Assembly: GCF_937616625.2 (NCBI RefSeq)
Contig: NC_065572.1
Coordinates: 73,158,653-73,222,652, forward strand
Direction of reading: 5' to 3'
DNA from: Mercurialis annua
Lineage: Eukaryota; Streptophyta; Magnoliopsida; Malpighiales; Euphorbiaceae
Length of the DNA: 64,000 nt
Part shown: positions 12,849 through 63,010 of the stretch, piece by piece
How the letters are laid out: every line of letters starts with the position of its first letter
Numbering within the stretch: the stretch's first letter is position 1
Made by a program: the position numbers and the translations under genes
The notes under the pieces: model-generated
Databases searched by the model: none
What the model was told of the DNA's origin: nothing
Seen by the model: the letters and a program-made list of their open reading frames with translations, nothing else

Positions 12849-15561
12849 ATGGTATGTGGATTTTTATATAATTGTTTTGATAGTTATTTTTTTTTTATTA
12901 AATCTCGTGTTGACGGAGAGACGTATTTGTTTTGTGCAGGTGAAGTTTACATCTGAAGAGCTTCGTCGCATTATGGACTATAAACATAACATTCGTAATA
13001 TGTCTGTTATTGCCCATGTCGATCATGGTATGCGTTTTTGCTGTGTGGTTTAATCTCTAATTTAATGCGAATTAAAGTTATATCAGTTTTCTGATTTTTT
13101 TTTTGTTTTGCTCTTTACAGGGAAGTCGACACTTACGGATTCTCTAGTGGCTGCTGCGGGTATTATAGCTCAGGAAGTTGCTGGTGATGTTCGTATGACA
13201 GATACTCGTGCAGATGAGGCAGAGCGTGGTATCACTATTAAGTCTACTGGTATCTCACTCTACTATGAGATGACTGATGAGTCCCTTAAGAGCTACAAAG
13301 GAGAGAGGCACGGGAATGAGTATCTTATCAATCTCATTGATTCTCCTGGGCACGTTGACTTTTCGTCTGAAGTCACTGCTGCTCTTCGTATCACTGATGG
13401 TGCACTTGTGGTCGTTGACTGTATTGAAGGTGTCTGTGTCCAAACTGAAACTGTGCTTCGTCAGGCATTGGCTGAAAGGATCAAGCCTGTCTTGACCGTT
13501 AACAAGATGGACAGGTGCTTCCTTGAGCTTCAGTTTGATGGTGAGGAGGCTTATCAAACTTTTTCCAGGGTCATTGAAAATGCCAATGTCATCATGGCTA
13601 CCTATGAAGATCCCCTTCTTGGAGATTGTCAGGTCTACCCAGAAAAAGGAACCGTTGCATTCTCAGCTGGATTGCATGGTTGGGCTTTTACTTTGACCAA
13701 CTTTGCTAAGATGTATGCCTCAAAGTTTGGAGTTGATGAATCGAAGATGATGGAAAGACTTTGGGGTGAGAACTTTTTTGATCCTGCCACAAAGAAGTGG
13801 ACCACCAAAAACTCTGGGTCCCCATCTTGCAAGCGTGGCTTTGTGCAATTCTGTTATGAGCCTATCAAGCAGATTATTAGCACATGTATGAATGACCAGA
13901 AAGATAAATTATGGCCGATGTTGACAAAGCTTGGTGTTACCATGAAGTCTGATGAGAAAGAGTTGATGGCGAAGCATCTGATGAAGCGTGTCATGCAGAC
14001 CTGGCTCCCTGCCAGTACTGCTCTTCTTGAAATGATGATTTTTCATCTTCCCTCTCCTTCCACGGCCCAGAGATACCGTGTTGAGAACTTGTACGAGGGT
14101 CCCCTTGATGATGTGTATGCAAATGCAATTAGGAACTGTGACGCTGATGGCCCTCTCATGCTTTATGTCTCCAAGATGATTCCCGCCTCTGATAAGGGCA
14201 GATTCTTTGCTTTTGGTCGTGTCTTTTCTGGGAAGGTCTCAACTGGTCTGAAGGTGAGAATCATGGGTCCAAATTTTGTACCTGGTGAAAAGAAAGACCT
14301 GTATGTCAAGAGTGTTCAGAGAACTGTTATCTGGATGGGCAAGAGGCAGGAAACAGTTGAGGATGTTCCATGCGGTAACACTGTTGCCTTGGTTGGTTTG
14401 GATCAATATATCACTAAAAATGCAACTTTAACCAATGAGAAGGAAGTTGAGGCCCATCCTATTCGTGCTATGAAATTTTCTGTCTCACCTGTCGTCCGTG
14501 TGGCTGTTCAATGTAAAGTTGCATCTGATCTACCGAAGCTTGTTGAAGGTCTTAAGCGGTTGGCCAAGTCAGATCCTATGGTTGTCTGTTCTATTGAGGA
14601 ATCTGGGGAACATATCATTGCTGGTGCAGGAGAGCTACATCTTGAGATCTGTTTGAAGGATCTGCAGGATGATTTCATGGGTGGAGCTGAGATTATCAAA
14701 TCAGACCCTGTGGTGTCTTTCCGTGAGACTGTCCTGGAGAAATCCTGCCGTACTGTGATGAGCAAATCCCCTAACAAGCACAACCGTCTGTACATGGAAG
14801 CGAGGCCTTTGGAAGATGGGCTTGCTGAGGCTATTGATGATGGTCGTATTGGACCAAGAGACGATCCCAAGGTTCGTTCTAAGATCTTGTCCGAAGAGTT
14901 TGGCTGGGACAAGGATCTTGCCAAGAAGATCTGGTGTTTTGGACCTGAAACTACTGGGCCTAACATGGTGGTTGATATGTGTAAGGGAGTGCAGTATCTT
15001 AATGAAATTAAGGATTCTGTTGTGGCTGGTTTCCAGTGGGCTTCAAAAGAGGGTGCATTGGCAGAAGAAAACATGAGAGGTATCTGCTTTGAAGTTTGTG
15101 ATGTTGTTCTTCATACTGATGCTATTCACAGGGGTGGTGGTCAGGTCATTCCTACCGCCAGGAGAGTCATCTATGCTTCTCAAATAACGGCCAAACCCAG
15201 ACTCCTTGAGCCAGTTTACCTGGTTGAGATTCAAGCACCGGAGGGGGCTCTTGGTGGTATTTACAGTGTGCTTAATCAGAAACGTGGTCATGTGTTTGAA
15301 GAAATGCAGAGGCCGGGCACTCCTCTCTACAACATCAAGGCTTATCTTCCTGTCGTTGAGTCGTTTGGGTTCTCAGCACAACTAAGAGCTGCCACGTCCG
15401 GACAAGCGTTTCCTCAGTCTGTGTTTGATCATTGGGACATGATGTCTTCTGATCCATTGGAGGCTGGTTCACAGGCAGCGACACTTGTAACCGATATCCG
15501 TAAGAGGAAAGGATTGAAGGAAAGCATGACCCCTCTTTCCGAGTTCGAGGACAAGCTGTAA
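12849..15561 (+). CDS. EEF2: Elongation factor 2 (eEF2), copy A
   Basis: Exons 12849-12851 (only the ATG), 12940-13027 and 13121-15561 give 843 residues, the standard plant eEF2 length. eEF2 is the cytosolic GTPase that moves peptidyl-tRNA and mRNA through the 80S ribosome. GTPase motifs: AHVDHGKST at 26-34, DSPGH at 104-108, NKMD at 158-161. The Thr residues of the switch I region aligned with the eEF2-kinase site are T57 and T59. The diphthamide acceptor is H700 in IHRGGGQ. The protein ends EDKL. The start is fixed by homology and by sharing the one-codon first exon with copy B. It differs from copy B at about 20 residues, several near the C-terminus ([15 protein letters not shown] against [15 protein letters not shown]). 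Confidence 0.97.
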
Positions 15562-15647: not shown

Positions 15648-16101
15648 TTACTGCTTATGCGATTGCCAATGGTTGCTAGCTTTTAAGCATGCACCAACAC
15701 AACAGTCCTATGGTCTTGTAAGAAATTGAAAGGTAATACCATTAGTTTGCTGGAGGAACGATAATCGCTGGCGATCTCTATGAACCATGCACTGCTGTTG
15801 GGAAGCTCACTTGCTGATATACTTAAATTGCAGACAGATGGGTGATGACATTGAGAATCTCCGGTACCGGTGAGGCAATCCAATTCGGTGCCATGGATCT
15901 GTTTGAATAGTGGTTTTATTTGTATGTTCTTATTTTGCCTCAAACCTTATGCTGCCTTTTTTTTGTGTGATTAATATTTTTCTGTTTTACCTGTGTGCTC
16001 AATTTCCTGCCTTGTAAATCTAGATCCAGTTTAATGCGATTGTGTTTGTATTTGTTACTGCTGTTCCTTTGCTCTGGTTATGCAGTTTCAATATATGTTA
16101 G
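15648..16101 (+). pseudogene. Duplicated 3' end of the ECT2-like gene
   Basis: Begins in a TTACTGCT shared with the last ECT2 exon (10450-10457), then follows that gene: GATTGCCAATGGTT (last coding codons), TAGCTTTTAAGCATGCACCA, CCTATGGTCTTGTAAGAAAT, CTGGCGATCTCTATGAACC, GGAAGCTCACTTG and, after a small deletion, AATTTCCTGCCTTGTAAATC. It keeps only the last few codons plus 3' UTR, so it cannot code. It marks the junction of a tandem duplication. Confidence 0.9.
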
Positions 16102-20849: not shown

Positions 20850-22039
20850 CTTGCTTATACAGGGCCCATTTTCAGCCGAACAACCGTCGGCCTAGCTGCA
20901 AGCCCAAAATGAAAACCCTAGCTGCTGTGGGGTATCTCATCCCCGAATCTGAAATATATACCCTTCATTTCAGCAAATTCTTTCTTTCTTTTATAACGCT
21001 TCATTTCGAGAGGCTCTGTAAACCCTCTCTTTGTTTCGCCGCCGCTGTATCTCTATCTTCTTCTCCACTCGTACGTATCTCTCTGTTAGCTCCAATCAAT
21101 TGAATCATTTCTCTGCTATTCGTACTTGGAATCTTGTGTATGTTCATTTTTTAGATTTGGATCTGTTTTTAAACTGTTTTTGATGATTTTATTGAGTTTT
21201 TTTTCTGTTATATCTATGAACAATTAGGTTTTTGTAGCTTCGTAATAGAGTTGATTTCAAATTATATGTTTAATACGTATGATATAGTATCAGTAATTTT
21301 ACTATGGATCTTCAATTATTGTTTATGAATGAGCTTTGTTTATTCAATTGCTATCGTTTTCAGTAGCTAAAATGTTTTAATTAGTAATAAATTCACTGTT
21401 TCTTTAGAATTTTGATTTTCTTGACGCTTATATACTGTTACTCAATAGTTGATATATTATTCGGAATCTAAATGTATGCATAATTATATTCTTTTAAATT
21501 CTCACGAATTTCTATATTTATATTGCATGTACACTGTTTTGAAATAGTCGAAATATTTATCAAAATTTAAAATCTATGCTTATATATATTTTTTTGTAAA
21601 AATTCTTATGAATTCTGATATTTACAATGCAAGTTTACTGTTAAAGTGTATAAATATTTATCAGAATTCAAATTTATGCAATGATTATTCTTTTAAATTA
21701 TAATCATCTTCATTGGTTTCAATTTCGTTATGTCTGTGGTGTCTGTGGATTTTGTTAGTGTGACATTCATAGTAGACGGTAATTTATTATGAGCATGTTG
21801 ATGATAATATGTGCTTATCAGATGATTTCCTTCCTACCTGAATTTGTGTATCCGATACTGTTTCATTTTGGAAAAAAAAATAAAATGCGATTTTCCATGT
21901 CGCACAGAAACAGTGAATTATTGTTTAACTTCAGCTTCATGACTCTTTGGATGTTGATTGAATTGTTTTTAACTTTATTGCTTGTGTTTGCAGGTTTTCT
22001 TATATAGTGTTTGGTGGTGAATACTAAAATCTAGTTAAA
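20850..22039 (+). promoter_or_regulatory. eEF2 copy B promoter, 5' UTR and leader intron
   Basis: A compact promoter is visible: site II core GGCCCA at 20863-20868, telo box AAACCCTAG at 20913-20921, a TATA-like AAATATATACC near 20952, then the leader exon GAGGCTCTGTAAACCCTCTC (21009-21028). The leader intron runs from a donor at 21071 (GTACGTATCT, as in copy A) to the acceptor GTTTGCAG ending at 21993. Site II plus telo box is the usual pair in plant translation-machinery promoters. Confidence 0.65.
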
Positions 22040-24866
22040 ATGGTATGTATTTTCTTATATAATCATTTTGACAGTTATCTTTTTTTCTTAAATCTCATGT
22101 TGATGGAGAGATATACTTGTTTTGTGCAGGTGAAGTTTACAGCTGAAGGGTTACGTCGTATTATGGACTACAAACACAATATTCGTAATATGTCCGTTAT
22201 TGCCCATGTCGATCATGGTATGCATTTTTGTAGTTCTGTCTATTTTGTGTCCATATAAATTAAATATGTTCCTGGTGTTAGATAGCTTTCTGCAGTTCGT
22301 TTGTGTGTAGATTTTGATGATATATGTGAATATTCTCTCGTTTTATGATTCAGCTTCTTTAATTCTATTTTTAATCTAATGCAAATTAACCTATTTCATT
22401 TTTCTGTATTTTTCGATCTTTACAGGAAAGTCAACACTTACAGATTCTCTAGTGGCTGCTGCTGGTATTATAGCGCAGGAAGTTGCTGGTGATGTTCGTA
22501 TGACAGATACTCGTGCAGATGAGGCAGAGCGTGGTATCACTATTAAATCTACTGGTATCTCACTTTACTATGAGATGACCGATGAGTCCCTTAATAGCTT
22601 CAAAGGAGAGAGACACGGGAATGAGTATCTTATCAATCTCATTGATTCTCCCGGGCACGTTGACTTTTCGTCTGAAGTTACAGCTGCTCTACGTATCACT
22701 GACGGAGCACTTGTGGTTGTTGACTGCATTGAAGGTGTCTGTGTCCAAACTGAAACCGTGCTTCGTCAAGCATTGGGTGAAAGGATCAAGCCTGTCTTGA
22801 CTGTTAACAAGATGGACAGGTGCTTTCTTGAGCTCCAGGTTGACGGTGAGGAGGCATACCAAACATTTTCGAGGGTCATTGAAAATGCTAATGTCATCAT
22901 GGCTACCTATGAAGATCCCCTCCTTGGTGATTGTCAGGTCTACCCAGAGAAAGGAACTGTTGCTTTCTCAGCTGGATTGCATGGTTGGGCTTTTACTTTG
23001 ACCAACTTTGCTAAAATGTATGCCTCAAAGTTTGGAGTTGATGAATCTAAGATGATGGAAAGACTTTGGGGTGAGAACTTTTTTGATCCTGCCACAAAGA
23101 AGTGGACAACCAAAAACTCTGGGTCCCCATCTTGCAAGCGTGGATTTGTGCAATTTTGTTATGAGCCTATCAAGCAGATTATTAACACTTGTATGAATGA
23201 CCAGAAGGATAAACTATGGCCTATGTTGACAAAGCTTGGTGTGACCATGAAGTCTGATGAGAAAGAGTTGATGGGCAAGCACCTGATGAAGCGTGTCATG
23301 CAGACCTGGCTCCCTGCCAGTACTGCTCTTCTTGAAATGATGATATTTCATCTGCCCTCTCCTTCCACGGCCCAGAGGTACCGTGTTGAGAATTTGTACG
23401 AGGGTCCCCTTGATGATGTGTATGCAAATGCAATTAGAAATTGTGATGCAGATGGTCCTCTCATGCTCTATGTCTCCAAGATGATTCCCGCCTCTGATAA
23501 GGGTAGGTTTTTTGCTTTTGGTCGTGTCTTTTCTGGGAAGGTTTCAACTGGTTTGAAGGTGAGAATCATGGGTCCTAACTTTGTACCTGGTGAAAAGAAA
23601 GATCTGTATGTTAAGAGTGTTCAAAGAACTGTTATCTGGATGGGGAAGCGGCAGGAAACTGTGGAGGATGTTCCATGCGGTAACACTGTTGCCTTGGTTG
23701 GTTTGGATCAATTTATCACTAAAAATGCAACTTTAACCAATGAGAAGGAAGTTGAGGCCCATCCTATTCGTGCTATGAAATTTTCTGTCTCACCTGTCGT
23801 CCGTGTGGCTGTTCAATGTAAAGTTGCATCTGATCTGCCGAAGCTTGTTGAAGGTCTTAAGCGGTTGGCCAAGTCAGATCCTATGGTTGTCTGTTCTATT
23901 GAGGAATCTGGAGAACATATCATTGCTGGTGCAGGAGAGCTACATCTCGAGATCTGTTTGAAGGATCTGCAGGATGATTTCATGGGTGGAGCTGAGATTA
24001 TCAAATCAGACCCTGTGGTGTCTTTCCGTGAGACTGTCCTGGAGAAATCCTGCCGTACTGTGATGAGCAAATCCCCAAACAAGCACAACCGTCTGTACAT
24101 GGAGGCGAGGCCTTTGGAAGATGGGCTTGCTGAGGCTATTGATGATGGTCGTATTGGACCAAGAGACGATCCCAAGGCTCGTTCTAAGATCTTGTCCGAA
24201 GAGTTTGGCTGGGACAAGGATCTTGCCAAGAAGATCTGGTGTTTTGGACCTGAAACTACTGGCCCTAATATGGTGGTTGATATGTGTAAGGGAGTGCAGT
24301 ATCTTAATGAAATTAAGGATTCTGTTGTGGCTGGTTTCCAGTGGGCTTCAAAAGAGGGTGCATTGGCTGAAGAAAACATGAGAGGTATCTGCTTTGAGGT
24401 TTGTGATGTTGTTCTTCATACTGATGCTATTCACAGGGGAGGTGGTCAGGTCATTCCTACCGCCAGGAGAGTCATCTATGCCTCTCAAATTACTGCTAAG
24501 CCCAGACTCCTTGAGCCAGTTTACTTGGTCGAGATTCAAGCACCGGAGGGTGCTCTTGGTGGTATTTACAGCGTTCTTAATCAGAAACGTGGTCACGTTT
24601 TTGAAGAAATGCAGAGGCCAGGAACTCCTCTCTACAACATCAAGGCTTATCTTCCCGTTGTTGAGTCGTTTGGTTTCTCCGCTACACTAAGAGCTGCCAC
24701 TTCCGGACAAGCATTCCCTCAGTGTGTGTTTGATCATTGGGACATGATGTCTTCCGATCCTTTTGAGCCTGATTCACAGGCATCGAAGCTTATAACTGAT
24801 ATTCGCAAGAGGAAAGGATTGAAGGAAAGCATGACCCCTCTTTCCGAGTTTGAGGACAAGCTGTAA
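22040..24866 (+). CDS. EEF2: Elongation factor 2 (eEF2), copy B
   Basis: Same structure as copy A: exons 22040-22042 (ATG alone), 22130-22217 and 22426-24866, 843 residues. All GTPase motifs (AHVDHGKST, DSPGH, NKMD), the T57/T59 switch I threonines and the diphthamide site IHRGGGQ are kept, so both copies should be functional translocases. Substitutions relative to copy A include S6A, E8G, K85N and Y87F near the switch region, and a changed segment about 35 residues from the C-terminus. The promoter of this copy retains the site II and telo box pair, so it is the more likely main source of eEF2. Its 3' UTR continues to about 24960. Confidence 0.97.
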
Positions 24867-41397: not shown

Positions 41398-41406
41398 TAA
41401 AAAAAC

Positions 41407-41586
41407 GGGTTTTTGACGGATCTGTGCCTACGGGCTTTTAAAAATTCCATTTTAGTGCCTGTGTGGAAATTAATTCCACATTTGTGCCTGGGACCACGTC
41501 ATCCGCGATTTAATATCGCGGATTGCCATGTCATCCGCGATATTAAATCGCGGATGATGTTAATTACTCAATTCTGAGTAATTAAC
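41407..41586 (+). repeat. Left terminal inverted repeat of the MULE
   Basis: 180 bp. Contains TGTGGAAATTAATTCCACA, two ATCCGCGAT hairpins in opposite loop orientation, and the hairpin TTAATTACTCA...TGAGTAATTAA that forms its inner edge. Confidence 0.92.
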
Positions 41587-41735
41587 ATCACTTAAATGCC
41601 ATCCGCGATTTAATTTCGCGGATGGCATTTACAGATTCCCTACCATTGGCAGGGAATCTGTTGACCGTTGGAAGCTGTGCTTCCAACGGTCAACAATTGA
41701 ATGCAATCCGCGATATTAAATCGCGGATTGCATTC

Positions 41736-42285
41736 TATAAAATGGGGGCTCACATCCCTCATTTTTCTCACACCTCAAACTCTCAACATAAAATTTTTTC
41801 TCAAGTGTTTTTAGAGCGTTTTTAGAGCGGTTTTGGAGCGTTTACTATTATTATTGCGGTTCGGTTTTAGAGCGATTTTGGAGCGAATTTTATTATTTTA
41901 GCACTATTGGCGGAGGACTACAAGAGGTAAATTTACTTTTCATTTTTTATTTTTATATTAAATTAGAAAAAAATAGATTAATATAACTTAAATGTTAGGT
42001 ATTTAATTATTTATTAAGTATGTGTACCTGTTAAAAATACGAGGTGTTAGTATAAATTATTAATATGTTATATTTTTCAATTAGTGACTGTTAGCAAAAA
42101 TGTAGGTGTTATTCTAGTTTATTGGGAAATTGTAATTTAGTTAAATATTAATTTTTTTAAAAATAGTATAAATTGTGAAAAAATGACAAAAAAAATATTG
42201 CTGAAAAAATTAGACTTTATTTAATGAATTTGAAAAAATGCTAAAATAAGTTGTATGTATATTTATTTTGATAAAATTTGTAGCA
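41736..42285 (+). promoter_or_regulatory. TATA box, leader and leader intron of the MULE gene
   Basis: TATAAAA at 41736-41742 lies directly after the last left hairpin. A CT-rich leader follows (CTCACACCTCAAACTCTCAA), then three TTTTAGAGCG(T/G)TTTT-type repeats at 41809-41885. A leader intron is suggested by CAAGAG/GTAAAT (donor 41927) and TTTGTAG/CA (acceptor ending 42283), two bases before the ATG at 42286. Confidence 0.6.
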
Positions 42286-43737
42286 ATGGCGACCTTAAAC
42301 CTATCGTTTGTGATATGGTGCGATGGTCGTATGGTAAGCTCTCCGGCTGGAGTAGAATACCAGGGCGGCCGTCGGGCGGATATGCCAATTATTGATAGGA
42401 TGAATTTTGAAGAATTGAGAAATATTTGTATAAGGGCAGTAGCTACGGACTCGGAAGTGGAGATTACAAAAATCTACTTTCGGCTTCCAAAAATTGAAAG
42501 TGGTCGTATTGTCTCCTACTCGTTGTACTCAGTATAAAACAACGAGCATATTTTTGGAATTTTGAGAGAGACGATGCGGTACCGAGTGTACGTACCTTTT
42601 TTTTTTACAAATTTACAATTACATTTTCTACTTTCTATATATTTACCGATTACTGTTTTCCCTTGTATAGCGTGATCTGGCGGAGATGGTACACGTTCGG
42701 AGATCTAGCCGTGACTCCATAATTGGGTCCGCTGCACGCAGTTCACAAATGGCGTACATGGAGGATCGTCGGGATGTCACTCTTCCACCGCCTGAGCCAG
42801 CAGTCCCGGCATTTGTACTGCCTCCTCTCCCTCCTTTGACGGTTGACTTGGATTCCATTCACGGTCGTCGTAGACAACGGCCTACACCACGCCAGCCTCG
42901 CCAGCGGCCAGATCAGCCTATACCGCCCCCTGTGTACTATCATTACGATGCAGGAGAGAGCTCGCAGACACGACAGAACTATTGCGGGCCTACTCAGTTT
43001 CAGGGTGACGGTTCACAGTTTCAGCAGCACTCGCAGGTATTGCGTACTTTATTATGTTTTTTTGCATAATAGTTTCACTTTATTTTAAAATACAAGTTAA
43101 TAAATGTTGATTCTTATATTTTTAATTTTATTCTTTATTACAGGTCCCTCCGATCTCATCGTTTCCGGTACCACCGTCATCCGGGCCGTTCTTTTACTCC
43201 TCTGAACAGACGCCGTATACCACTCATCTGACAGAGCCGGCTCAGTATCGACAGGCTACACCACCCCCATTTCAGGCACCTCAGCATGGTCAACCTTCTA
43301 CCCCCTCTGATCAGGGTTACCGGCCCGTGTTTTCTTGGCTCGATCAACCGTCAGCTTCACATTCGCGTCCCTCCCCTTCCACCCCGGTCGCGGATCCGTC
43401 GCAGATGTTTTTTTCGATATCAGAGGCTTGGTTGAACAGTCCAGGTCTCGGGGAGGGGGGCTCTTTCGAGGCGTTACAGTCCGGTAGTATTCAGTTTTCG
43501 GGTCCGTCCTTCAGCCTCCTTCCGCAGTCACAGGAGGCACCGACTACTGCACCGGCTGCAGATGATCAGGAGCTATCCCTAGACGATGATCACGAGAGCG
43601 AGGGCGCGCCAGGTGACAGGCCGGGTGATAGACAGTATCGCGATCTTACTGAGAGCAGTCTGCGCCGCAGGCAAGATATGGGGTACGATATGAGGACTCA
43701 ACTGGAGAAAAACACTAGATATCGAGATTATTTATGA
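42286..43737 (+). CDS. MULE-carried gene: transposase-like N-terminus plus Pro-rich tail
   Basis: Model: exons 42286-42531, 42671-43036 and 43144-43737, 401 residues. The first exon (LSFVIWCDGRMVSSPAG, DRMNFEELRNICIRAV, EVEITKIYFRLP) resembles the PB1-like N-terminal domain of MULE transposases. The second and third exons are Pro/Gln/Ser-rich (EPAVPAFVLPPLPPLTVDL) and end with an acidic stretch and an Arg-rich tail (RQYRDLTESSLRRRQDMGYD). There is no DDE core, no MuDR or SWIM zinc finger. The first intron uses a weak donor, CA/GTATAA; if splicing uses the stronger GTACGTACC near 42590, an in-frame TAA at 42535-42537 truncates the protein, and translation could instead start at the ATG at 42686 (314 residues). 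The function is unknown; it may be a deletion product of an autonomous MULE or an accessory protein. Confidence 0.5.
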
Positions 43738-44021
43738 TTTTGTTATTTTTGTAGACACTTTAAATTTTGTAATCCTACTTTATTTTATCGACTATTCCGT
43801 ATTATTATATCGTTCATCATTTTATATTGTTTATGCAAATTGTAATTTTTGTATAAACTAGTAAAAACATAAAAAATAATATACAATGCTAACTAAAAAA
43901 CGGTTTTTATATTTTATTAGAATTTTAACAAAAAATCTAAAATACGGAATTTATTCAAAAACGCTAACTAAAACAATTTTAGTGATTTTATAGTAATTTT
44001 TTTTTTAAAAATATAAATAAA
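43738..44021 (+). other. 3' UTR of the MULE gene
   Basis: AT-rich, non-coding, between the stop codon and the first right-hand hairpin. Several AATAAA-like words (ATAAATAAAATG near 44012) could serve polyadenylation. Confidence 0.45.
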
Positions 44022-44146
44022 ATGATTGGGTAAATAATACCCAATCATTGTCTTTCTCCAATGATTGGGGAGACAGTAATCTGTCTCCCCAATCATTGGG
44101 GAGAGATGCAATCCGCGATTTTATATCGCGGATTGCATCTAATTAG

Positions 44147-44326
44147 GTTAATTACTCAGAATTGAGTAATTAACATCATCCGCGATTTAATATCGCGGAT
44201 GACATGGCAATCCGCGATATTAAATCGCGGATGACGTGTTCCCAGGCACAAATGTGGAATTAATTTCCACACAGGCACTAAAATGGAATTTTTAAAAGCC
44301 CGTAGGCACGGATCCGTCAAAAACCC
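44147..44326 (-). repeat. Right terminal inverted repeat of the MULE
   Basis: Mirror of 41407-41586, with differences only at the base after GACGGATC (C against T) and in the GGGA(A/C)CACG stretch. Confidence 0.92.
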
Positions 44327-44335
44327 TAAAAAAAC

Positions 44336-47300: not shown

Positions 47301-48013
47301 AACTTCTATAGGGTGGCAATTTGTGAAAGTGACCAATTGTTTTTATTGATAATTGTTATTGCATTGACATTAAATTGGACTATTGCACCTAATATATACT
47401 ATTCTCTTGTAGCAATCACAAATGGGTACGGCAATTTAATTTGAACAAGAAGAATAGACAGTTTGCAAGTATAAATTTGAATATATTTTTTTATTAATTG
47501 ATTCCTCTAATATTTTAATTGAGAAATCTAATTATGGAATAAATTATTTTAATGGAATTAATGATTAAGATAATCAATTTGTAAACCATATATTCTTCAA
47601 GAAAAAAATAATTTAAATCCTCCACTTGTTTGGTGGCAATTATGATGTTGCAATGCTAACAAGTATCAATATAATAAAAATAAAGAAAACCCACCAAAAG
47701 AAGTATCATTTCTTTTTCAAGTAAGATGTTCCTCAACTTTTGATTAGATTCCTAGGCCAAGACACCCTTTATGATTAAACAAAGGATCATCTTAGTTATT
47801 TATATAATGGGCTCTTATAAATAAAGTTTAACACATTTCAATAGTTTAGTTCAATTTTATCAATTCATATTATTATTATTATTATTATTGAGAAGATCAA
47901 TTCATGTATTTTTAGAGGACATGAAAAGCAATTGAATAAAAAAATTAATGGTATTAATATAAATATAAAATAATAAGTATAAACAATATTGCGTGTTGAA
48001 TTTTTTTATAACA

Positions 48014-48073
<60 letters not shown>

Positions 48074-49359
48074 CGGTTAATTTATATGTAACTTATAAAA
48101 TATATATTAAATTTTATTTATAAATATTTATTTTTTAATTTAAAAAAATTGAAATAATTTTTTTTAATTGGAAACTCCATTTATATTTGAGTAAAAAAAT
48201 CAATTGTATTCTTAAAATTGTTACTGGGGGTCAAATAACTTATTTTTAAGTATTTTAATCAATTAAGAAAAATATTTTCATATTTTTTAAATTTGTTTAT
48301 GTTATATAATTTTATTTTAAATAAATTGAAAAATAAAAATATTATACTTTTTTTTTGAGGAAATAAAAATATTATACTTAATCGACCGAAATGGGCTGAA
48401 AGTGAGTGATTGGATGAAGATTCACGAGTTGAAGGACCAGATTGATTTTTCTATTTGATTATATTCTGTAATTGATGGAAAAGAAGAAAATAATTACCAA
48501 ATAGTTCATCATAAATAATTAGAATATAAATAAACTAATTAAAAAAAGAAAGGAAGAAAAAAGTAGGAAATAGGAGGAATCAGAATTCACGTGTTAAAGA
48601 GGGGATGCCGGTCATAAAGGGACAGATGGTCCTGATATAAAAGGGGCCCACAAGTGGACCTGAAAATCCTACAAACAAAATCTCCTATTATTTTTGTGTT
48701 GTCCTTCTTTACTTTCTCCTTATTAAATGCTAACTTTGTTTTCTTCTGTCTTCGCTTGTGGGCTCCACCTCTTACTTCCCTAACTTTGATATTCATATCA
48801 TTTAATGCCATTTTTTAAATTAAACATTTTTTATTTTATTATGAATAAATAAATTAGTTGGCCAATTTTGAAGGTTGAAAGGCTTGAATGGAAATATGAG
48901 TATGACAAGTTTGGGCATATTTTTCTATGGAGGTAAGGTAAGTACTATTATTGGAGTCTTGTTATATTCTCAATTCAATGTCACCTTCTTTCGAATTGAC
49001 CCATGATCGCAAATTTTTGGAATTTATTTCTCGAAACATCTTTCTCTTTTATTACAATTCATATTTATCCATTCTTTATTTGAATTTTCAATAAGAATCA
49101 AATCATTCTTATACCAGTTTTTAAAAAATAGAACACTCCATCCATATAAAAATTCATGTATAAATTGTTCGAAATTTATAACTTTTTAAGTATTATAATA
49201 GATTAAATGCCTTTATTTAATATTTTCACAATTTATTTTTTATTTTTACGTATACTAATAAGTATGGACTAATATCGATAATTTTTTCTAAAGAAATTAG
49301 TTATAATAAATTATAATTTACTAATTAGAATATATTAAATATATTGTTTAGAATATTAA
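44336..49359. other. Long AT-rich gene-free spacer
   Basis: No gene supported. Open frames at 45558-45746, 46723-46998 and 48587-48811 are short, AT-driven and match no family I recognise. A CA/TG-poor segment at 46220-46590 has GCCGGTTCAACC and CGGCTTCAACC words suggesting a decayed MITE. Confidence 0.35.
48020..48070. repeat. (AT)n microsatellite
   Basis: About 25 uninterrupted AT units. Confidence 0.95.
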
Positions 49360-49368
49360 AAAAAATTA

Positions 49369-49737
49369 GGATGAGTTCTTAAAAAATCACGAACTTTACA
49401 CGAAGTTCCATTTTAATCATGACCTTTAAAAGTTGTCATTTAAAGGTACGAACTTTCATTTTATTTCAAATCTATCACCAAAGTAAAATTCAGTGTATTT
49501 TATCTCACTAAAAATTCCTAATCCTAGATACTCTAACCGAAAGATAATAAGATTTGATGTCGACTAATAACTTGGGTCTTTCATTAATGATTTAGTGAAG
49601 AATTTAGTCAATAAAAATACACTGAAATGATGAATTTAAAACAAAATGAAAGTTCGTGCCTTTAAATGGAAACATTTAAAGGTCATGATTAAAATGAAAC
49701 TTCTTGTAAAGTTCGTGATTTTTTTAGGAATTAACCC
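49369..49737. mobile_element. Long-TIR MITE (MULE-like), GGGTTAATTCC family
   Basis: 369 bp with a perfect 9-bp target duplication AAAAAATTA (49360-49368, 49738-49746). The two arms are inverted repeats of about 110 bp each: TCACGAACTTTACACGAAGT on the left against TCACGAACTTTACAAGAAGT on the reverse-complemented right, then TTTTAATCATGACCTTTAAA on both. The right end, GGGTTAATTCCT, is the same as the ends of the element at 17763-18143. Non-coding; a transcript would fold into a long hairpin. Confidence 0.85.
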
Positions 49738-49746
49738 AAAAAATTA

Positions 49747-51312
49747 TAATGCATTACTGATAGTTTTATTTATGTGTAAATTTAAAAGTGCCATTTTTTT
49801 ATATTGGACGGAAGACTGTAAAACAATATAATTATTGTTCAGATTAAAATCTTCGATTGAATTTGACATGTTATGTTCAATTAATTTATATTATTTTATA
49901 AAAATAAAAAAATATTTTATTTTATATGTAAGAAAATATAAATTAATTGCAAGTATATAGATTAATTTAAACTCTTTTAATTTATATTATTTATTTATAC
50001 AAAAATATAAATTGATTGTAAATTATATAATATATTAAATAAATTGAGAAGATTCTAATTTTAGATTTAGTATCATCCACTAAAACTAATTAAATTATCA
50101 AATAAGCTTACGATAATGTAAATATCAAATGTAATATTCATGCAATACAATTACTTTATAAAAAATAATAAAAGCAAACAAAAATATGAAACTTTCTAAT
50201 CAATAATGTCATTTTATTTGGAAAAATATAAAAGATACAAAGAACAAACACGTCAACATTTTAATCAAAGCATAGGAGAAAGTTAAACGTGGCCCTCCCT
50301 TTCTCATTTTTCATTACAAGACAATCCTAAAAGTTATCTAAACATTTGTGGATTTGTCTTAGCCGTGGCTCAGCATAAATCAATAAAATTCTGAATCAAA
50401 CACGTATTTTTACCTTTAAGGCTCGGAAAATGATAGAGTATGGGTAGGACTCATATCAATCAGAGGGTCCATTCCTATCTCGTCCGTTGATTATGTTTAC
50501 TAATTTCTAGAAAGTTCCTTATCATTGACTCTTCTTATCGTATTTTATGGATCAGAGTGCTTGGCGCCTTTATCATTTCCTTGATTCGTGTCATATTTAT
50601 ACTTACATAGTAACTTTTATTATTGTTACTTTTACTATCTACTCCTAGAGTAATTTTATGGAGTTGTTGATAAATACGTTACACCTCCTAACCCTAGATA
50701 ATCATAGGCATGCCTTGTTTTGAACTAAAATATCAGAAATAGACATATATTTGACCCTATTTTTATAAAATTTAATTTAGATTATTTATGTATTTATTAT
50801 AATTCAAATTGTTATATTTTTATTTTAATAAAAAATTAAATTATTTTAATTTTAATTTTTAAATGTATATTTTTTAATTTGATTCAAAGTAACTTCAACC
50901 TATTCACTAATCAGATAAAAAATTAAAATATTTTAATTTATTTTTTAAAATTTAATTTAGACAAGGAGCTTTAAAATTCTTTTAAAAGTTAAAGATCTAA
51001 TAATTAAATATTTAAATCCATATACATATTTTAATATATATTTCATACTTTGAACTAAAAAATGACTTATCTTTTATTAGAAATAAATATATATGCATTT
51101 CTCATTTAAAGTAATAGTATGCATATGTAAAGTCTAAAATAAAAATATAAGAATAGTACAGAATCAAACGTCAATTTTTATATAATATATTGGGCATGAT
51201 AAATTGGACTTTTTCACAAAAAATGTGTCTACTTTACAAATCACGAGTCCATAGTGTTATAATGATTATAGTAAAGTGATTAAAATAAAAGAAGATAATA
51301 ATATTACCCATG
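49747..51312. other. AT-rich spacer
   Basis: No gene seen. Nothing recognisable apart from AT-rich simple sequence. Confidence 0.35.
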
Positions 51313-55928: not shown

Positions 55929-56008
<80 letters not shown>

Positions 56009-57089
56009 TTTATAAACTTCAAATCTTAAATCTAGACTGTAACTATAAAATTTAAAAAATTCAAATTTAAATCTAAATTTTATGACCTAAACCACATTTT
56101 TGATCAAACTTTTCAATTTCGGATGAGTTAATTGGTTTGATCGATTTTTTTCTCACCCCTACATTGTATGCTTCAGTTTAATAATTTTGTAATGCAGCTA
56201 ATTTAACTTTAACACATATTATGCATTGTAAATATAGACTTGAAAAAATAAATTTTTAAAAAATCATTTACTTAGAAAGAGGAATTGGACACTAAGCTGG
56301 CAGGCAGACATTTCTTATAAATTTAGCAGCATTCATTTTCAATGTTGTGGAAAATTGAATCTATTTGACCCCTGAATTTGCCTTTAGAACAAATAATGTT
56401 GAAATTCTTGCTTGGCGAAAATACAATATTTCCCAGGCTGAATCAATTTTCACATCTTTGACAGAAAAAATGATTTCCCATTCAAAACCAAGTTTCATGG
56501 CAAATGAGAATTCTAATTTCTAAGTTGTACTTAACACATTTGACTAAACATTTATGATAAGGCATTCAACATAAATCCCAACTTTTTAAAATTATCTAAT
56601 TTAATCCTATAAATCTGTCATTTCTGATGTGTTTTCTATATGCACGTTATTTACAATGTTTGACAACTTACATACTATAAAATAAATTAATCAAGCAATT
56701 AATTTATTTCTTAAAATTTAAGAAAGCAACTAACAAGAATGCATATATATCTAGATGAATCCAAAGATAAGAATTGAAGAAATTGATTTATGAGTTGAAT
56801 AAAAGTTGTGGTATCCAAATTGGACCATACTGCCTTAAAAGTGTTGCAAAGTTCATGAACAGAGGCTGTTGTGCCTACACAAATCAAGATGTCTGTGAAC
56901 ACATTTATGGCAATGTATATTCATAATCATCTGTCAATTTTTGTGCCTTGCTGGGCAAATGCTCCACCCAATGTATCTCATTTTCACCTCTATTTCATCT
57001 CTCATTTATTTATCTTTACTATAAATCTATATAAAAATAATATGCTACTGAATTTATACAATTCGATTTAATTAATTGGATATGTAATT
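55441..57089. other. AT-rich spacer
   Basis: No gene. Contains the (AT)n microsatellite at 55930-56006. The rest is unremarkable up to the start of the retrotransposon LTR. Confidence 0.4.
55930..56006. repeat. (AT)n microsatellite
   Basis: About 38 AT units in a row. Confidence 0.95.
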
Positions 57090-57547
57090 TGATACCGACC
57101 TAATAATATTCGAACTCCAGGCATCGCCTAACAAATGCTATGCTCGCCCAACGGGTCTCCAAATCTCCCATCGCCCATGTCTGTCTCGGGCGGACTCCTC
57201 CAGGTCTGCCATCCAGGCGACCTCATCCACTCTGTTTCCTGACACCCACTACCCGGGATAATCGGGAACGTGCCTTCACCATTATCAATAATCGTGGGAC
57301 AAACCCACGATTTACCAGATAACCACCGCCTTAAAATCATTATAAAAGGAAGCCACTGAATGCCGAGAAGGGTAAGCACAAATCAGACTTAAATACTCTT
57401 ACACTCATTTACCTACCAAAAAACCCTCTCTGACTTAAGCATCGGAGTGGCTTTCAGGCTGAGCAAGCCTGAGGTCCTTTGAGCTTATATTTGTTACTTG
57501 TGCAGGAAAAGCAGTACAGGCGACCCTTGGAAGATCGACCTGTATCA
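57090..57547 (+). mobile_element. 5' LTR of the Tat-type retrotransposon
   Basis: Probable limits TGATACC at 57090 and ATCA at 57547, both provisional because the 3' LTR is outside the window. Internal signals: the TATA box ATTATAAAAGG (57339-57349), a leader with GACTTAAGCATCGGAG (57431-57446), then TTGTGCAGG. Directly after it, TTTGGTGCGGTGAACGTGGA (57548 onward) is placed like the primer-binding site of this lineage (usual form TTTGGCGCCGTCTGTGG). Confidence 0.6.
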
Positions 57548-57622
57548 TTTGGTGCGGTGAACGTGGAACTTATTAGTTTCGTCGTTCCTTTTAGATACTT
57601 TTCAGAATTCGCTTTTTCAAGA

Positions 57623-60600
57623 ATGGATCCCCCAGGAGATAATACTCTACCAGCCACCAACCGAGAAGACAGGGAAACAGAACCACCGGCCCTAAACCTG
57701 TTTCCCCCAACCAGCGAAGAAGGAGAAACCAGCGACCCCCTGGCAATAAGACAGACGATACCTCCGATAGCCATAGCACCTGATGGAGAGCCAATCAACA
57801 ACCAAGCAATGTTCAAGGCTTTCCTAGAAATCACCAGTCTACTCAAAGACATCAAACAGAGTATCTCGTTAAAACCGCCAGAGCAGGGATCAGCAAAATC
57901 ACCAGTACAGAAGTTAACGTCAACCATGGACAAGGGAAAAGAACCGATGCGAGAGGAAGATGCCCCTGAAAATTCCACACGGAAACAAAATGCCCCCATC
58001 ATAATTCCAGACGAAGAACGTTGGATGGATGAACAACACACCCTCAAAGGCGGAGAAGAGCATCTGGAGGAAAAAGTCCGTCAAGTCATGAGCAGGCTTG
58101 GAATAAGATGTGAAGACGTGGACATCTCTCTTCGAAGTGACTCACCACTCGCAGATTTCATCATCTCTCACGAGTTCCCTACAAAGTTCAGATACCCCCC
58201 AAATTTGGAGTCATACGATGGAACAGGCTGTCCCAAGAGCCATATTCACAAATTCCAAGCGGTGATCAATGTTCAGACAAACTTGGATCACGTACTATGC
58301 AAACTTTTTCCTACTACCTTAAAAGGTCTGGCGCAGGAATGGTACCAGAGTTTAAAGCCAGGATCAGTGCTGACGTTCAAACAATTCTCAGGACTATTCC
58401 AGGCTAGATTCGTAGCATGCATCCCTCAAAAGAAGCTATCCACAGATCTGCTGGCCATCATGCAATGGGAAGGAGAGACACTCAGGAAGTATGTAGAAAG
58501 ATTCAATAAGGAGGCGATGCAGATAGAAGACCTGAGCCAGGAGATCGCCTACACAGCATTACTCAATGGAACTACCAACTCCGACCTACGAAAGGAATTA
58601 TTGGCTAAATCGCCAAAATCATTTACCACACTGATGACCATCGCACATACACAGATCAGAGTGGATGATGGCCAGAGAGAGATAGAGAATCGCCTCGGAC
58701 GGGCAGAAGAACGAACGTTTGCAGAAAGAAGAAATGGGGACAGGTCGCCCATAGGAAAGAGGTTCGGAGAAAAAGGCAACGACCATTTCAGAAATAAAAG
58801 AAAAAAAGACGAAGATAGGCGATATACGCCCCTGAACACGACCAGAACCAACGTACTGTTTTGGGTAAAAGACAGCCGAGAGAAGGTCAGATGGCCAAGG
58901 AAGATGAACGCTGCGTCAGCCAGCAAAAGAGACAATAGCAAATACTGTGAATTTCACAGAGACAACGGCCACACCACAGATGAATGCTGGCACTTGAAGG
59001 AGGAAATAGAGAAGCTGATAGAAAGGGGATCCCTTTCCCAGTTCGTAAAAAGGGACACCGAAGCCAGAGAAACGGAATCAGAAAGAAAGAAAGAGCGGAA
59101 AGAAGAAATCACCAGAAGACCCAGACCAGAGCCAGCAGGCGTGGTTAACGTAATAATGGGCGGATCGACCGGAGGAGACAGCAATACTACAAGGAAGAAA
59201 GCTGCAAGAACAGTCTACTCGGTTAGCCCGGGTGCACCGAATGCTAAGAAATTCAGAAGTGTATCTTTTTCGGAGGTCGATAGTCATGGCTTATCAGTCC
59301 CCCATGAGGACGCCCTAGTTGTCAAGGGGCGACTCAACAATTTCGAGGTTTCTCGGATGCTCGTAGACACGGGAAGTTCGGTAAACATGATTACGATGGA
59401 GGTGTTCGGCAGAATTGGACTCAAGAAAGAAAATTTGACACATGTCTCTACTCCACTAGTGGGACTAGGAGGCAAATCTGTACAGGTGGAAGGATCACTG
59501 GAAATAAGCATCCAACTGGGGGATGGAGAGATCTACAAAGAGATCCGAGCAGAATTCATGGTGGTCAATATGGATTTCGCATACAACGCAATTCTCGGAA
59601 GGCCACTCTTGCACGATACATGCGCATCCATTTGCATGAGGTACCTACTAATGAAAATCCCAACCAGAGAAGGCGATGCCGAAGTCAGAGGATGCCAAAA
59701 GTCAGCCAGAGAAGCATACTTTACAGCTCTCAGGAAAGTACATATAACTTTGCCAGTACTAACAATGGAACCTCCAGAGAAGAAGGAAAGGGCGGAGCAT
59801 TATGGGCGAACTGAGAAAATCGAATTATCCCCAGGAAAGGAGATAGAAGTGGGAGATGAGCTAGAAGAAGAAATCAAGCGATCTCTGACCGAAAACCTCA
59901 GATCGCTTGGAGACTCCTTTGCCTGGACAACAGACGAATTGATCGGAGTAGACCCGGACGTCATATGTCATCGGTTAAACATAGCGACTGACGCGAAGGC
60001 AGTGATACAAAAGAAGAGAAGGCACTCGCCCGAAAAACAACTCGCCATCGCAGAAGAGGTCGCCCGGTTAAAAGCAGCAAACGTGATCAGAGATGCCTAT
60101 TACCCGAAGTGGGTAGCAAATGTGGTGATGGTAAAAAAGTCCAATGGCACTTACCGAATGTGCGTGGACTTCACAGATCTGAATAAAGCATGTCCCAAAG
60201 ATAGTTTCCCACTTCCACACATTGATCAGTTAGTAGACTCCACAGCAGGTCACGCCCTCTATACATTCCTAGATGCCAAGGCGGGATATCACCAGATACC
60301 CATGGCACCGGAAGATCAGGAGAAGACGGCCTTCATAACGGACCAGGGATTATTTTGTTACAAGATGATGCCCTTCGGTCTGAAGAACGCAGGAGCCACA
60401 TATCAGCGGCTGGTGAACTCGATATTCAGAGATCAGATAGGAAAACACATGGAAGTTTATGTGGATGACATGATTATCAAGAGCATCCGAGCTGAAGACC
60501 ACCCAATAGATGTGAAGATAGTCCTGGAGACACTAAAGAGATACCAGCTAAAACTCAATCCGGAAAAGTGTGTATTCGGAGTACCGGCAGGCAAGTTCTT

Positions 60601-63010
60601 GGGGTACATGGTCTCTCAGAGGGGTATCGAGGCTAACCCAGATAAAATCGAAGCGGTCTTAAGAATGACACCGCCACGGAGCATACATGAAGTCCAGAAG
60701 CTCAACGGCCGGGTCACGGCTCTAGGTCGGTTCATGTCCTGCTCGGCAAAACGATGCCTGCCTTTCTTCAAAACCCTGAAACAGATCAAGAACTTCACAT
60801 GGACCGCAGAATGCCAGCAGGCGTTTGAAGAATTGAAAAGCTTCCTGTCCTCGCCCCCACTGTTGGCGAGACCGGATCCGGGCGACGTGTTATATTTATA
60901 CATCTCCTGCTCTGACGAAACAATAGCAGGAGTATTGGTGTCGGAAAAAGGAGGCGAACAATACCCGATCTACTACATTAGCAAAGTACTCAGAGATGCG
61001 GAGCTGAGATACCCGAAGTTGGAGAAGCTGGCGCTGTGCGTATACACCGCCACCATCAAGCTCCGACATTACTTCGAAGGGCACCAAGTCATTGTACGGA
61101 CCGACCAACCATTACGAAAAATCCTCCAGAAGGCAGAGACAAGTGGACGCATAGCAGAATGGGCCGTCAAAATAGGAAGTCTGGGCGTTATCTATGAAGC
61201 TCGGAAAGCACTGAAAGCTCAAGCACTAGCCGACTTCTTCGCTGAATTAACATTCAAAGAACCCATGGAGGACAAAGCGACTCCCTGGGAGATGCACGTC
61301 GATGGAGCAGTTTGCGGAGAAGGAGCAGGCATCGGAGTCGTGCTCAAAGGACCAGGAAGAATCCAAATGGAATACTCAGCAAGACTCGAATTTCCAGCTT
61401 CCAACAATGTGGCGGAATATGAGGCGCTGATAACAGGGTTGCAATTATGCGAAGAGCTCAACATCTCCGAAGTCCAGATCTGCAGTGATTCACAGCTGGT
61501 TGTGAACCAAGTCTCGGGGAACTTCGAAGTAAAGGAAGCTACGTTGAAGAAGTACGCCAAGCAGGCCAAAACCTTCTTTGCCGATAATGGGCGATCCTGG
61601 TCGCTACAGCAAATACCCAGAGCAATGAATGGAAGATCAGACGAATTGGCAAAGTGGGCAGCAACAAAGAATTACGACTCGATGAGAAACATTCCTCATG
61701 AAATCAAACGACAACCTAGCTTTCAAGAAGAAATTGAGGAAGGCGAAGTACTGATGGTAGAAGGGGAAGAAACCTGGATGTCCCCCCTCACAGCATACCT
61801 GGCTAATGGAATACTCCCCGAGGATAAGAAGGAAGCCAAAAGGATAGTGATACTCTCATCAAAGTTCGGAATATACAACGGCCAGCTGTACAAACGGTCA
61901 TTCACCCATCCCTGGCTAAGATGTGTGAACAAAGAAGAAGGGGAGTACATCATAAAAGAATTACATGAGGGGACCTGCGGAGCACATGACGGAGCATCAA
62001 CACTGGTCAGGAAAGCACTACTACAAGGCTATTATTGGCCCACGATGAAAGAACAAGCTACAACGCTAGTAAGGGGATGTTGGCCTTGCCAGCAACATGC
62101 CTTGGTACCAAGAAAGCAAGCTTCAGAAATGAAACCCATCGGCAGTGCATGGCCGTTCGCCCAGTGGGGTATGGACATCCTGGGACCTCTCCCTTTGGCC
62201 ACAGGACAACGGAAGTTCCTGGTAGTGGCAATCGACCACTTCACCAAGTGGATAGAGGCAGAACCACTGGCAAAGATCACCCAACAACGCATAACTAACT
62301 TTTTCTTTAGATCTATCTTGTGCAGGTTTGGAATACCGAAGGTGCTGATCACAGACAACGGAAGGCAGTTCGACTCAGCAAAGTTTAGAAAGTTTTGTGC
62401 CGAGTATCAGATCGACCTAAGGTTCACTTCGGTTTACCATCCACAATCGAATGGGCAAACCGAAGTGGCCAACAGAATCCTACTGGCCGGACTAAAAAGA
62501 AGACTAGACGAGTGCAAAGGAAGATGGGTAGAAGAACTCTACAGTGTCCTATGGAACTACCGTACCACCCCTAGAGAATCAACGGGCGAAACTCCATTCG
62601 CCCTAGCCTATGGAACGGAGGCTGTAATTCCTGTAGAGATCGGCGCACCCACGCCAAGGACAGAAGACAACCAGCTAAACCTAGAAGAAAACGAAGAAGA
62701 GCTCAGGAACAATCTAGATCTCCTGGTTGAAAAAATCAACAGATCAGACATCAGGATGGAAGCCTACAGACAAAAGATGGCCAAACATTTCAACAGCCAT
62801 GTAAAGAAAAGAAAATTCAAACTAGGCGACCTAGTCATGCGAAAAACCGAAGTCAAAAAAGGAGAAGCAGGAAGCGGAAAACTGCAGCCAAACTGGGAAG
62901 GACCTTACACCATCAGCGAGGTCATCAAAGAAGGAACATTTAAACTCACCAACTCCATGGGAAGAATCATACCAAGGACATGGAACGCCAACAACTTGAG
63001 AAAAATTTAG
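57623..63010 (+). CDS. Gag-Pol polyprotein of the Tat-type element
   Basis: 1,795 residues from the first ATG (MDPPGDNTLPATNRED). Order: gag capsid region about 195-300 (AQEWYQSLKPGSVLTFKQF); zinc knuckle C442-EFHRDNGHTTDE-C455; aspartic protease DTGSS at 582-586; reverse transcriptase from about 800, with YVDD at 946-949; RNase H about 1090-1200; a second RNase H of archaeal type from about 1222 (MHVDGAVCGEGAG); integrase with the zinc part HEGTCGAH...CWPC near 1446-1490 and the catalytic triad D1518, D1578, E1614 (35 residues between the last two); a C-terminal chromatin-facing tail. No stop or frameshift, and all catalytic residues are visible. It would copy its RNA into DNA and insert it into the host genome. 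Gag and pol are in one frame, so balance between them must come from processing. Confidence 0.93.
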   Translation: MDPPGDNTLPATNREDRETEPPALNLFPPTSEEGETSDPLAIRQTIPPIAIAPDGEPINNQAMFKAFLEITSLLKDIKQSISLKPPEQGSAKSPVQKLTSTMDKGKEPMREEDAPENSTRKQNAPIIIPDEERWMDEQHTLKGGEEHLEEKVRQVMSRLGIRCEDVDISLRSDSPLADFIISHEFPTKFRYPPNLESYDGTGCPKSHIHKFQAVINVQTNLDHVLCKLFPTTLKGLAQEWYQSLKPGSVLTFKQFSGLFQARFVACIPQKKLSTDLLAIMQWEGETLRKYVERFNKEAMQIEDLSQEIAYTALLNGTTNSDLRKELLAKSPKSFTTLMTIAHTQIRVDDGQREIENRLGRAEERTFAERRNGDRSPIGKRFGEKGNDHFRNKRKKDEDRRYTPLNTTRTNVLFWVKDSREKVRWPRKMNAASASKRDNSKYCEFHRDNGHTTDECWHLKEEIEKLIERGSLSQFVKRDTEARETESERKKERKEEITRRPRPEPAGVVNVIMGGSTGGDSNTTRKKAARTVYSVSPGAPNAKKFRSVSFSEVDSHGLSVPHEDALVVKGRLNNFEVSRMLVDTGSSVNMITMEVFGRIGLKKENLTHVSTPLVGLGGKSVQVEGSLEISIQLGDGEIYKEIRAEFMVVNMDFAYNAILGRPLLHDTCASICMRYLLMKIPTREGDAEVRGCQKSAREAYFTALRKVHITLPVLTMEPPEKKERAEHYGRTEKIELSPGKEIEVGDELEEEIKRSLTENLRSLGDSFAWTTDELIGVDPDVICHRLNIATDAKAVIQKKRRHSPEKQLAIAEEVARLKAANVIRDAYYPKWVANVVMVKKSNGTYRMCVDFTDLNKACPKDSFPLPHIDQLVDSTAGHALYTFLDAKAGYHQIPMAPEDQEKTAFITDQGLFCYKMMPFGLKNAGATYQRLVNSIFRDQIGKHMEVYVDDMIIKSIRAEDHPIDVKIVLETLKRYQLKLNPEKCVFGVPAGKFLGYMVSQRGIEANPDKIEAVLRMTPPRSIHEVQKLNGRVTALGRFMSCSAKRCLPFFKTLKQIKNFTWTAECQQAFEELKSFLSSPPLLARPDPGDVLYLYISCSDETIAGVLVSEKGGEQYPIYYISKVLRDAELRYPKLEKLALCVYTATIKLRHYFEGHQVIVRTDQPLRKILQKAETSGRIAEWAVKIGSLGVIYEARKALKAQALADFFAELTFKEPMEDKATPWEMHVDGAVCGEGAGIGVVLKGPGRIQMEYSARLEFPASNNVAEYEALITGLQLCEELNISEVQICSDSQLVVNQVSGNFEVKEATLKKYAKQAKTFFADNGRSWSLQQIPRAMNGRSDELAKWAATKNYDSMRNIPHEIKRQPSFQEEIEEGEVLMVEGEETWMSPLTAYLANGILPEDKKEAKRIVILSSKFGIYNGQLYKRSFTHPWLRCVNKEEGEYIIKELHEGTCGAHDGASTLVRKALLQGYYWPTMKEQATTLVRGCWPCQQHALVPRKQASEMKPIGSAWPFAQWGMDILGPLPLATGQRKFLVVAIDHFTKWIEAEPLAKITQQRITNFFFRSILCRFGIPKVLITDNGRQFDSAKFRKFCAEYQIDLRFTSVYHPQSNGQTEVANRILLAGLKRRLDECKGRWVEELYSVLWNYRTTPRESTGETPFALAYGTEAVIPVEIGAPTPRTEDNQLNLEENEEELRNNLDLLVEKINRSDIRMEAYRQKMAKHFNSHVKKRKFKLGDLVMRKTEVKKGEAGSGKLQPNWEGPYTISEVIKEGTFKLTNSMGRIIPRTWNANNLRKI

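Follow-up and report, generated by a model that had tools for sequence, protein, structure and literature searches.

Palindrome ladders at both ends of a Mutator-like element in Mercurialis annua, with slowly changing stems and inverting loops

We analyzed a 64,000-nucleotide stretch of the Mercurialis annua genome (RefSeq assembly GCF_937616625.2, contig NC_065572.1, positions 73,158,653 to 73,222,652 of the forward strand), hereafter the window. Positions 41407-44326 are a 2,920-bp Mutator-like element (MULE), the left end of which is formed by a row of seven palindromes (41501-41738). The element is flanked by a target site duplication (TSD), TAAAAAAAC, whose left (41398-41406) and right (44327-44335) copies match at 9 of 9 positions. 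Its terminal inverted repeats (TIRs) are 180 bp long and 99% complementary, the left one lying on the forward strand at 41407-41586 and the right one on the reverse strand at 44147-44326. On the forward strand the interior holds the first exon of a MULE transposase gene (42286-42585; residues 1-100 of 655, 99% to the Mercurialis protein P0007), which is interrupted by an in-frame stop at 42535-42537; the remainder of this gene is absent from the window copy. Downstream on the same strand is the tail of a plant-mobile-domain (PMD) gene (42671-43734), matched as two exons, 42671-43039 and 43141-43734. Judged by eye, both edges of the missing part lie within introns, one of the transposase gene and one of the PMD gene, which the deletion apparently fused into a single intron at 42586-42670.

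A protein search with the joined exons of the window returned 10 matches, all 10 from Mercurialis annua. In a domain scan of 8 of these 10 proteins, the MULE transposase domain PF10551 was found in P0007 (655 aa, E 1.8e-17) and the plant mobile domain PF10536 in P0001, P0004, and P0010. The window's own pieces gave no accepted Pfam domain, and their single match, to YolD at E 0.12, fell under the cut-off and was disregarded. The 9-bp TSD (within the range of 8-11), the long TIRs, and the MULE/MuDR transposase of full-length members identify the family as a MULE. Longer copies match both transposase and PMD proteins, and the window copy, with only residues 1-100 and the PMD tail, has therefore lost part of its interior by deletion. 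A prokaryotic or viral origin was rejected in view of protein matches confined to Mercurialis annua and a genome of 451 Mb, and a scan of viral contigs for the ladder hairpin found none.

Several other features were noted elsewhere in the window. The 1,845-aa open frame at 57473-63010 reads, by eye, like a complete Ty3/gypsy-type gag-pol polyprotein. An inverted repeat with 123-nt arms (49355-49477 and 49628-49750, 83% complementary and 150 nt apart) may be a small foldback element or MITE. There are also two sets of direct repeats, 12827-13394 with 22018-22699 and 10496-10945 with 15700-16050 (85-93% in the listed blocks), spaced 9.2-9.3 kb and 5.1-5.2 kb apart, and long (AT)n-rich microsatellites at 48006-48159 and 55932-56077.

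A preliminary description of this DNA had claimed seven adjoining palindromes running up to a TATA box, four of them built on a common arm. All seven were located (H1-H7), and H1, H2, H4, and H7 do share the core arm ATCCGCGAT, which H3, H5, and H6 lack. Outermost, a hairpin scan found a small palindrome, pal (TGTGGAAATTAATTCCACA, 41462-41480). The core palindromes H1 (41501-41523) and H2 (41531-41557) follow; together the two can form a single palindrome whose arms are 28 nt long (41496-41560). Next come the AT-rich palindrome H3 (TGATGTTAATTACTCA, 41555-41590), which is replaced by a different perfect stem in most other family copies, and the core palindrome H4 (41593-41631; 16-bp arms, 7-nt loop, one mismatch to the core in its second arm). 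Two accessory palindromes, H5 (AGATTCCCT.CC, 41631-41661) and H6 (TGTTGACCGTTGGAAGC, 41659-41695), precede the last core palindrome, H7 (41696-41738; 19-bp arms with one mismatch). The perfect stem reported for H6 is indeed perfect, closed by a 3-nt loop, but it is 17 bp long and not 16. The row ends at a TATA box on the forward strand, TATAAAA, recognized by eye at 41736-41742. Stem arms cover 212 of the 243 bases of 41496-41738. Whereas pal, H1, H2, and most of H3 lie inside the TIR and are mirrored at the right end, H4-H7 occur at the left end only. Three GTGCCT direct repeats, seen by eye at 41424, 41455, and 41484, are spaced about 30 bp apart in the left TIR; most modules are palindromes.

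In 41501-41734 a hairpin scan, which merges H1 and H2 into one and skips any hairpin that has two or more mismatches or whose loop exceeds 9 nt, counted 6 non-overlapping hairpins with 102 paired bp. In comparison, 200 dinucleotide shuffles of the same stretch held a mean of 0.45 hairpins and 3.7 bp, with a maximum of 3 hairpins and 26 bp. A chance origin of the left ladder is excluded. Folding of the ladder, proposed in the preliminary description as a check, gave z-scores of -24.2 (DNA) and -23.5 (RNA), and 0 of 200 shuffles were equally stable.

The right end carries a second, mirror ladder (44019-44237, fold z -20.6) that the preliminary description did not mention. It begins with the accessory palindromes R6 (AATGATTGGGTA, 44019-44051) and R5 (CCAATGATTGGGGAGACAG, 44055-44102; 22-bp arms with one mismatch) and the core palindrome R4 (ATGCAATCCGCGAT, 44104-44140), all three of which (44019-44140) are present at the right end only. 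The right TIR then carries copies of H3 (44147-44174), H1+H2 (44173-44237), and pal (44253-44271). The motif CAATSATTG in R5 and R6 resembles an HD-Zip II site. At both ends the TIR is composite and self-complementary, as in foldback-type elements.

A genome search with 41400-41900 returned at least 171 matches (40 of 150 candidates scored), and 17 of the 22 longest start exactly at 41407. Besides the window copy, 27 further loci of this family, family A, were fetched. A perfect TSD of 8-10 bp flanks 21 of the 25 copies with both ends, the window included; the test let the ends shift by up to 3 positions, which 2 of the 21 needed and 19 did not. The exceptions are L012, which matches at 9 of 10 positions, and L017, L033, and L035, which have no convincing TSD. 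Many copies are internally deleted, and five longer two-ended copies (L013, L014, L020, L028, and L032; 5.7-6.9 kb) match transposase and PMD proteins. Across the 451 Mb of the genome there are 178 occurrences of the core pattern ATCCGCGAT-N3-9-ATCGCGGAT and 0 of its reversed control pattern.

The preliminary description had also proposed that inner arms are fixed while outer arms change. We compiled 130 distinct hairpins on the ATCCGCGAT palindrome, allowing at most 2 mismatches over both arms together. Outer pairs 1, 2, 4, 6, 7, and 9 are complementary in 87, 75, 63, 52, 64, and 42% of them, above every one of 500 shuffles (means 46, 47, 35, 36, 30, and 30%), and the proposal holds across the family. 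At outer pairs 3, 5, 8, 10, 11, and 12, complementarity was not above all 500 shuffles. Further paired outer arms were seen in more diverged copies.

Three copies depart from the usual arrangement of the ends. L030 (G000 C4:36590911-36596400) is a 5,490-bp element made of an inverted duplication of the element's right half, with arms of about 2.6 kb that are 99.4% alike and about 260 bp apart. Both of its ends carry a right-type ladder, and it has a TSD; the element is similar to the maize Mu killer locus and might give rise to hairpin RNA. L047 contains, at its positions 108-318, a 211-bp element consisting of two outer TIRs and a single core hairpin within a perfect 10-bp TSD, GATCAAAAAG. 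In L018 a TSD is present and no hairpin was found at the right end. Together these copies suggest that much of the ladder may be dispensable for transposition, unless it was lost after insertion. If the ladder is not needed for transposition itself, a use in the promoter would weigh more.

To compare substitution rates, we used the 19 copies with comparable left ends, the other 9 of 28 having been dropped because their left interior is rearranged or deleted. Stem arms show 0.035 differences per site (bootstrap 0.024-0.049), and loops and spacers show 0.216 (0.159-0.273). The intron differs at 0.065 (0.051-0.077) and exon 1 third codon positions at 0.068 (0.045-0.090, a range that just overlaps that of the stems); the outer TIR and the 5′UTR differ at 0.098 and 0.141. 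Loops are about three times faster than intron and third positions, and stems evolve at about half their rate. The stems look constrained and the loops unusually fast.

Pairing was examined in alignments of each end, with shuffle tests for double changes that ignore the relatedness of copies. At the left end (25 copies, 97 named pairs; L030, L032, and L034, rearranged or short, left out), 95.6% of stem cells are paired, against 28-44% when partners are slid by 1-3 columns. Both sides have changed in 11 of the 97 pairs and 35 cells, a level reached in 0 of 500 shuffles, and pal pair 61/69 has changed on both sides in 9 of the 25 copies. The right-end alignment (22 copies, 80 pairs) leaves out L018, L019, and L035, which are rearranged or short, and L021, L027, and L031, which have no right end as fetched. 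Here 93.1% of cells are paired and 37 are double-changed (0 of 500 shuffles); the 7 double-changed pairs were reached in 64 of 500 shuffles, and further pair types are not raised (496 of 500). Family C, a related group described below, was aligned from 14 of 21 rows (L055, L056, L059, L061, L063, and L071 are partial and L068 apparently belongs to another family). Of 103 pairs, 96.7% of cells are paired; 48 cells are double-changed (0 of 500), the 11 double-changed pairs were reached in 17 of 500 shuffles, further pair types are again not raised (500 of 500), and most changes divide two clades. The family copies thus do not show palindromes decaying like their loops and without compensation, the outcome that the preliminary description had named as contrary to its proposal.

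The fast loops change in a particular manner. A scan of 14 sites found eight exact reverse-complement pairs of loop alleles with at least 2 differences each. These include the H4 loop (TCAAT/ATTGA, flipped in L022 and L023), the H7 loop (AATCAAA/TTTGATT), the H1-H2 spacer (TGCCATGTC/GACATGGCA), the H6 loop (TGT in the window copy, L009, and L024; ACA in most copies), and the R5 loop. Reverse and complement controls gave 0 and 0, but this comparison is unfair since the scanned windows include closing pairs, and a fairer scan is preferred. With windows of at least 5 nt at both ends, that scan found 9 maximal reverse-complement replacements versus 1 complement and 2 reverse, and no replacement of any kind in the 5′UTR and intron control. 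One of the 9 stems from misaligned L035 sequence, and the other eight fall on hairpin loops or spacers. With windows of at least 3 nt the raw counts (reverse-complement/reverse/complement) were 15/3/18 at the left end, 11/1/9 at the right end, and 2/0/1 in the control, the classes often being indistinguishable at 3-4 nt. On trees built from non-hairpin sequence, well-supported branches require the H6 loop to have changed orientation at least twice, and likewise the R5 loop; the H1-H2 spacer flip may be a single event.

Inversion of a loop or spacer between related copies marks template switching. In the portions of the two papers available to us, loop flips with arm homogenization are a described signature of this process, in yeast coding genes and RNA genes and not in transposon-end arrays (PMC8604942; PMC8794818). 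The 'repeated invention' raised in the preliminary description is supported in this form, by the loop inversions, by adjacent double changes on both arms of the family C small palindrome, and by an extra hairpin unit in L027.

Ladders are also found in other MULE groups of this genome. Searching with P0006 brought up numerous loci encoding MULE transposases (70 of 1121 candidates scored), which we grouped by eye. Among the matches listed, group B is P0006's own, groups C, D, and E are 50-54% identical to P0006, and family A is 53-54% identical. We inspected the 1.6 kb preceding a single copy from each of groups B, C, D, and E, and a ladder was present in 4 of 4, with 7, 6, 6, and 9 hairpins (5 in family A by the same count), compared with shuffle means of 0.06-0.22 and with 0-2 hairpins in control 380-bp stretches at the same loci. 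These ladders adjoin a TATA-like word, which in B, D, and E is followed by one further hairpin.

The core arms differ between families: ATCCGCGAT in A, ATCCGCAAGT in B, TCCGCATTC in C, GCCCGCAA in D, and GCCCGC[CT]AT in E, with YCCGC common to all, and each left end read has 2-4 core palindromes. A, C, and D share one order of modules: small palindrome, two cores in a row, AT-rich hairpin, a third core, accessory hairpin(s), a fourth core, and TATA; that in E is similar, and B deviates most, with two cores and several GATTCCC hairpins. Core, module order, and family letters were read by eye in one genome, with B, D, and E resting on one copy each. Accessory letters recur between families, namely ATTCCCTGC in the left ends of A, D, and E (ATTCCCTG in B), CCGTTGG in the left ends of A and C, and CCCAATGATTGGGG at right ends. 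In three family C elements, all with 9-bp duplications, the right end reads pal, core, core, AT hairpin, and core in C letters, followed by A-like R5 and R6. The right ends of A and C are 69% identical over 309 columns, including an identical stretch of 22 nt.

Hairpins at the ends of a plant transposon are known from Tam3, a member of the hAT superfamily with an 8-bp TSD. The Mercurialis elements resemble plant MULEs of the MuDR/MUDRAVI type in their TSD of 9-10 bp, long TIRs, MULE transposase, and second gene of PMD type; in the accessible parts of that source, no end carries 6-9 separate palindromes as an ordered ladder with cores specific to the family (PMC6446971). The TIRs of MuDR hold a transposase site and promoters with cell-cycle motifs, according to the portion of the source at hand (PMC3310237). 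Modular foldback TIRs, subterminal repeats, and many deletion derivatives are shared, as far as the consulted sections go, with the foldback-type MULEs MuTAnT and FARE1 (both PMC4486113), Muta1 (PMC5225508), and Tm1 (PMC3169594). However, the same sections present the TIRs of Muta1 and Tm1 as built on direct repeats, whereas the Mercurialis modules are mostly perfect palindromes, several of them specific to one end. Open-access literature on palindromes in MULE and transposon ends and on Mercurialis MULEs, as partly available, yielded foldback MULEs and no ladder with family-specific cores, which does not imply absence from print. Looking for the hairpin letters in the literature brought up five papers, none related by its title.

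Taken together, the slow evolution of the stems, the accessory letters that recur, and the cores specific to each family at both ends fit palindromic binding sites. We see an even chance that the ladder is an array of such sites for proteins, kept as near-perfect hairpins partly by template switching. The core palindromes, YCCGC with a family-specific extension, would be read by the family's own transposase. Transposase docking, one of the functions suggested in the preliminary description, is plausible because the core recurs at both ends and differs between families; as the cores differ in concert, each transposase would recognize its own ends. Accessory palindromes that recur between families (at the left ATTCCCTGC and CCGTTGG, at the right CCCAATGATTGGGG) would bind conserved host factors, and those at the left may double as part of the gene's promoter. 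The H6 arms fit the MYB3R/MSA consensus. The AACGG core of that consensus appears in the part of the source we could consult (PMC10905365), but in two divergent copies, L043 and L046, one or both H6 arms read AACAG. The length of the arms, 16-30 bp, exceeds what binding needs and speaks against binding sites. Template switching by DNA polymerase between arms would copy changes across, lengthen arms, and invert loops, and would account for hairpins whose perfection goes far beyond what binding requires.

Alternatively, hairpins that need no function might arise and be perfected solely as a mutational by-product, when replication or gap repair switches templates between inverted repeats. In favor of this are the flipped loops, the changes on both sides of a pair and the adjacent double ones, the lengthened arms, and the duplicated unit; the same marks are described for template switching in the parts of PMC8604942 and PMC8794818 available to us. 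Unbiased copying between arms should nevertheless leave the substitution rate unchanged, while stems evolve at about half the intron and third-position rate, and a similar module order with recurring accessory letters across families also speaks against this reading. We therefore keep both binding sites and template switching, and regard the by-product alone as unlikely.

Selection on structure itself, as cruciforms, single-strand hairpins, or hairpin RNA, appears similarly improbable. In Tam3, end hairpins limit the loss of transposon ends by gap repair, and single-strand hairpins could act likewise here. The extreme folding energies are compatible with such selection, as are H3, the small palindrome, and the outer arms, which alter their letters yet stay paired; cruciform formation, too, is compatible with the data. 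Core and accessory arms, however, keep their letters within a family, and the accessory letters recur between families. A transcript from the left promoter would not contain the ladder, which lies upstream of its TATA box, and the many internally deleted copies indicate that ladders do not prevent abortive repair. Resistance to silencing, in which a CpG-dense ladder attracts an anti-silencing factor or repels methylation, seems to us very improbable. Stem CpGs are dense and kept, with 327 of 340 cells still CG at 18 sites versus 174 of 210 at the 12 other CpG sites of 41407-42326, but the general constraint on stems accounts for the same numbers.

Returning to the binding-site reading, a more specific form of it is possible but on balance doubtful. 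The ends of plant MULEs may carry a two-tier palindromic code, in which concerted family cores co-evolve with the transposase and ordered, end-specific palindromes, conserved between families, serve host factors, all written in hairpins by template switching. If true, no family would mobilize another, and copying a half-site to the partner arm could create a symmetric recognition site in one step. Several families in one genome, with similar order, different core letters, and recurring accessory modules, offer a natural experiment on how a MULE transposase distinguishes its own ends from those of sister families that share the nucleus. Through their repeated loop flips and double changes, the ladder ends also form a rich natural archive of template switching in a plant nuclear genome, in which stems, loops, intron, and codon positions can be compared directly. 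With similar rows in related families, and with hairpins that stay paired as their loops invert, the way in which these elements identify their ends can be put to the test.
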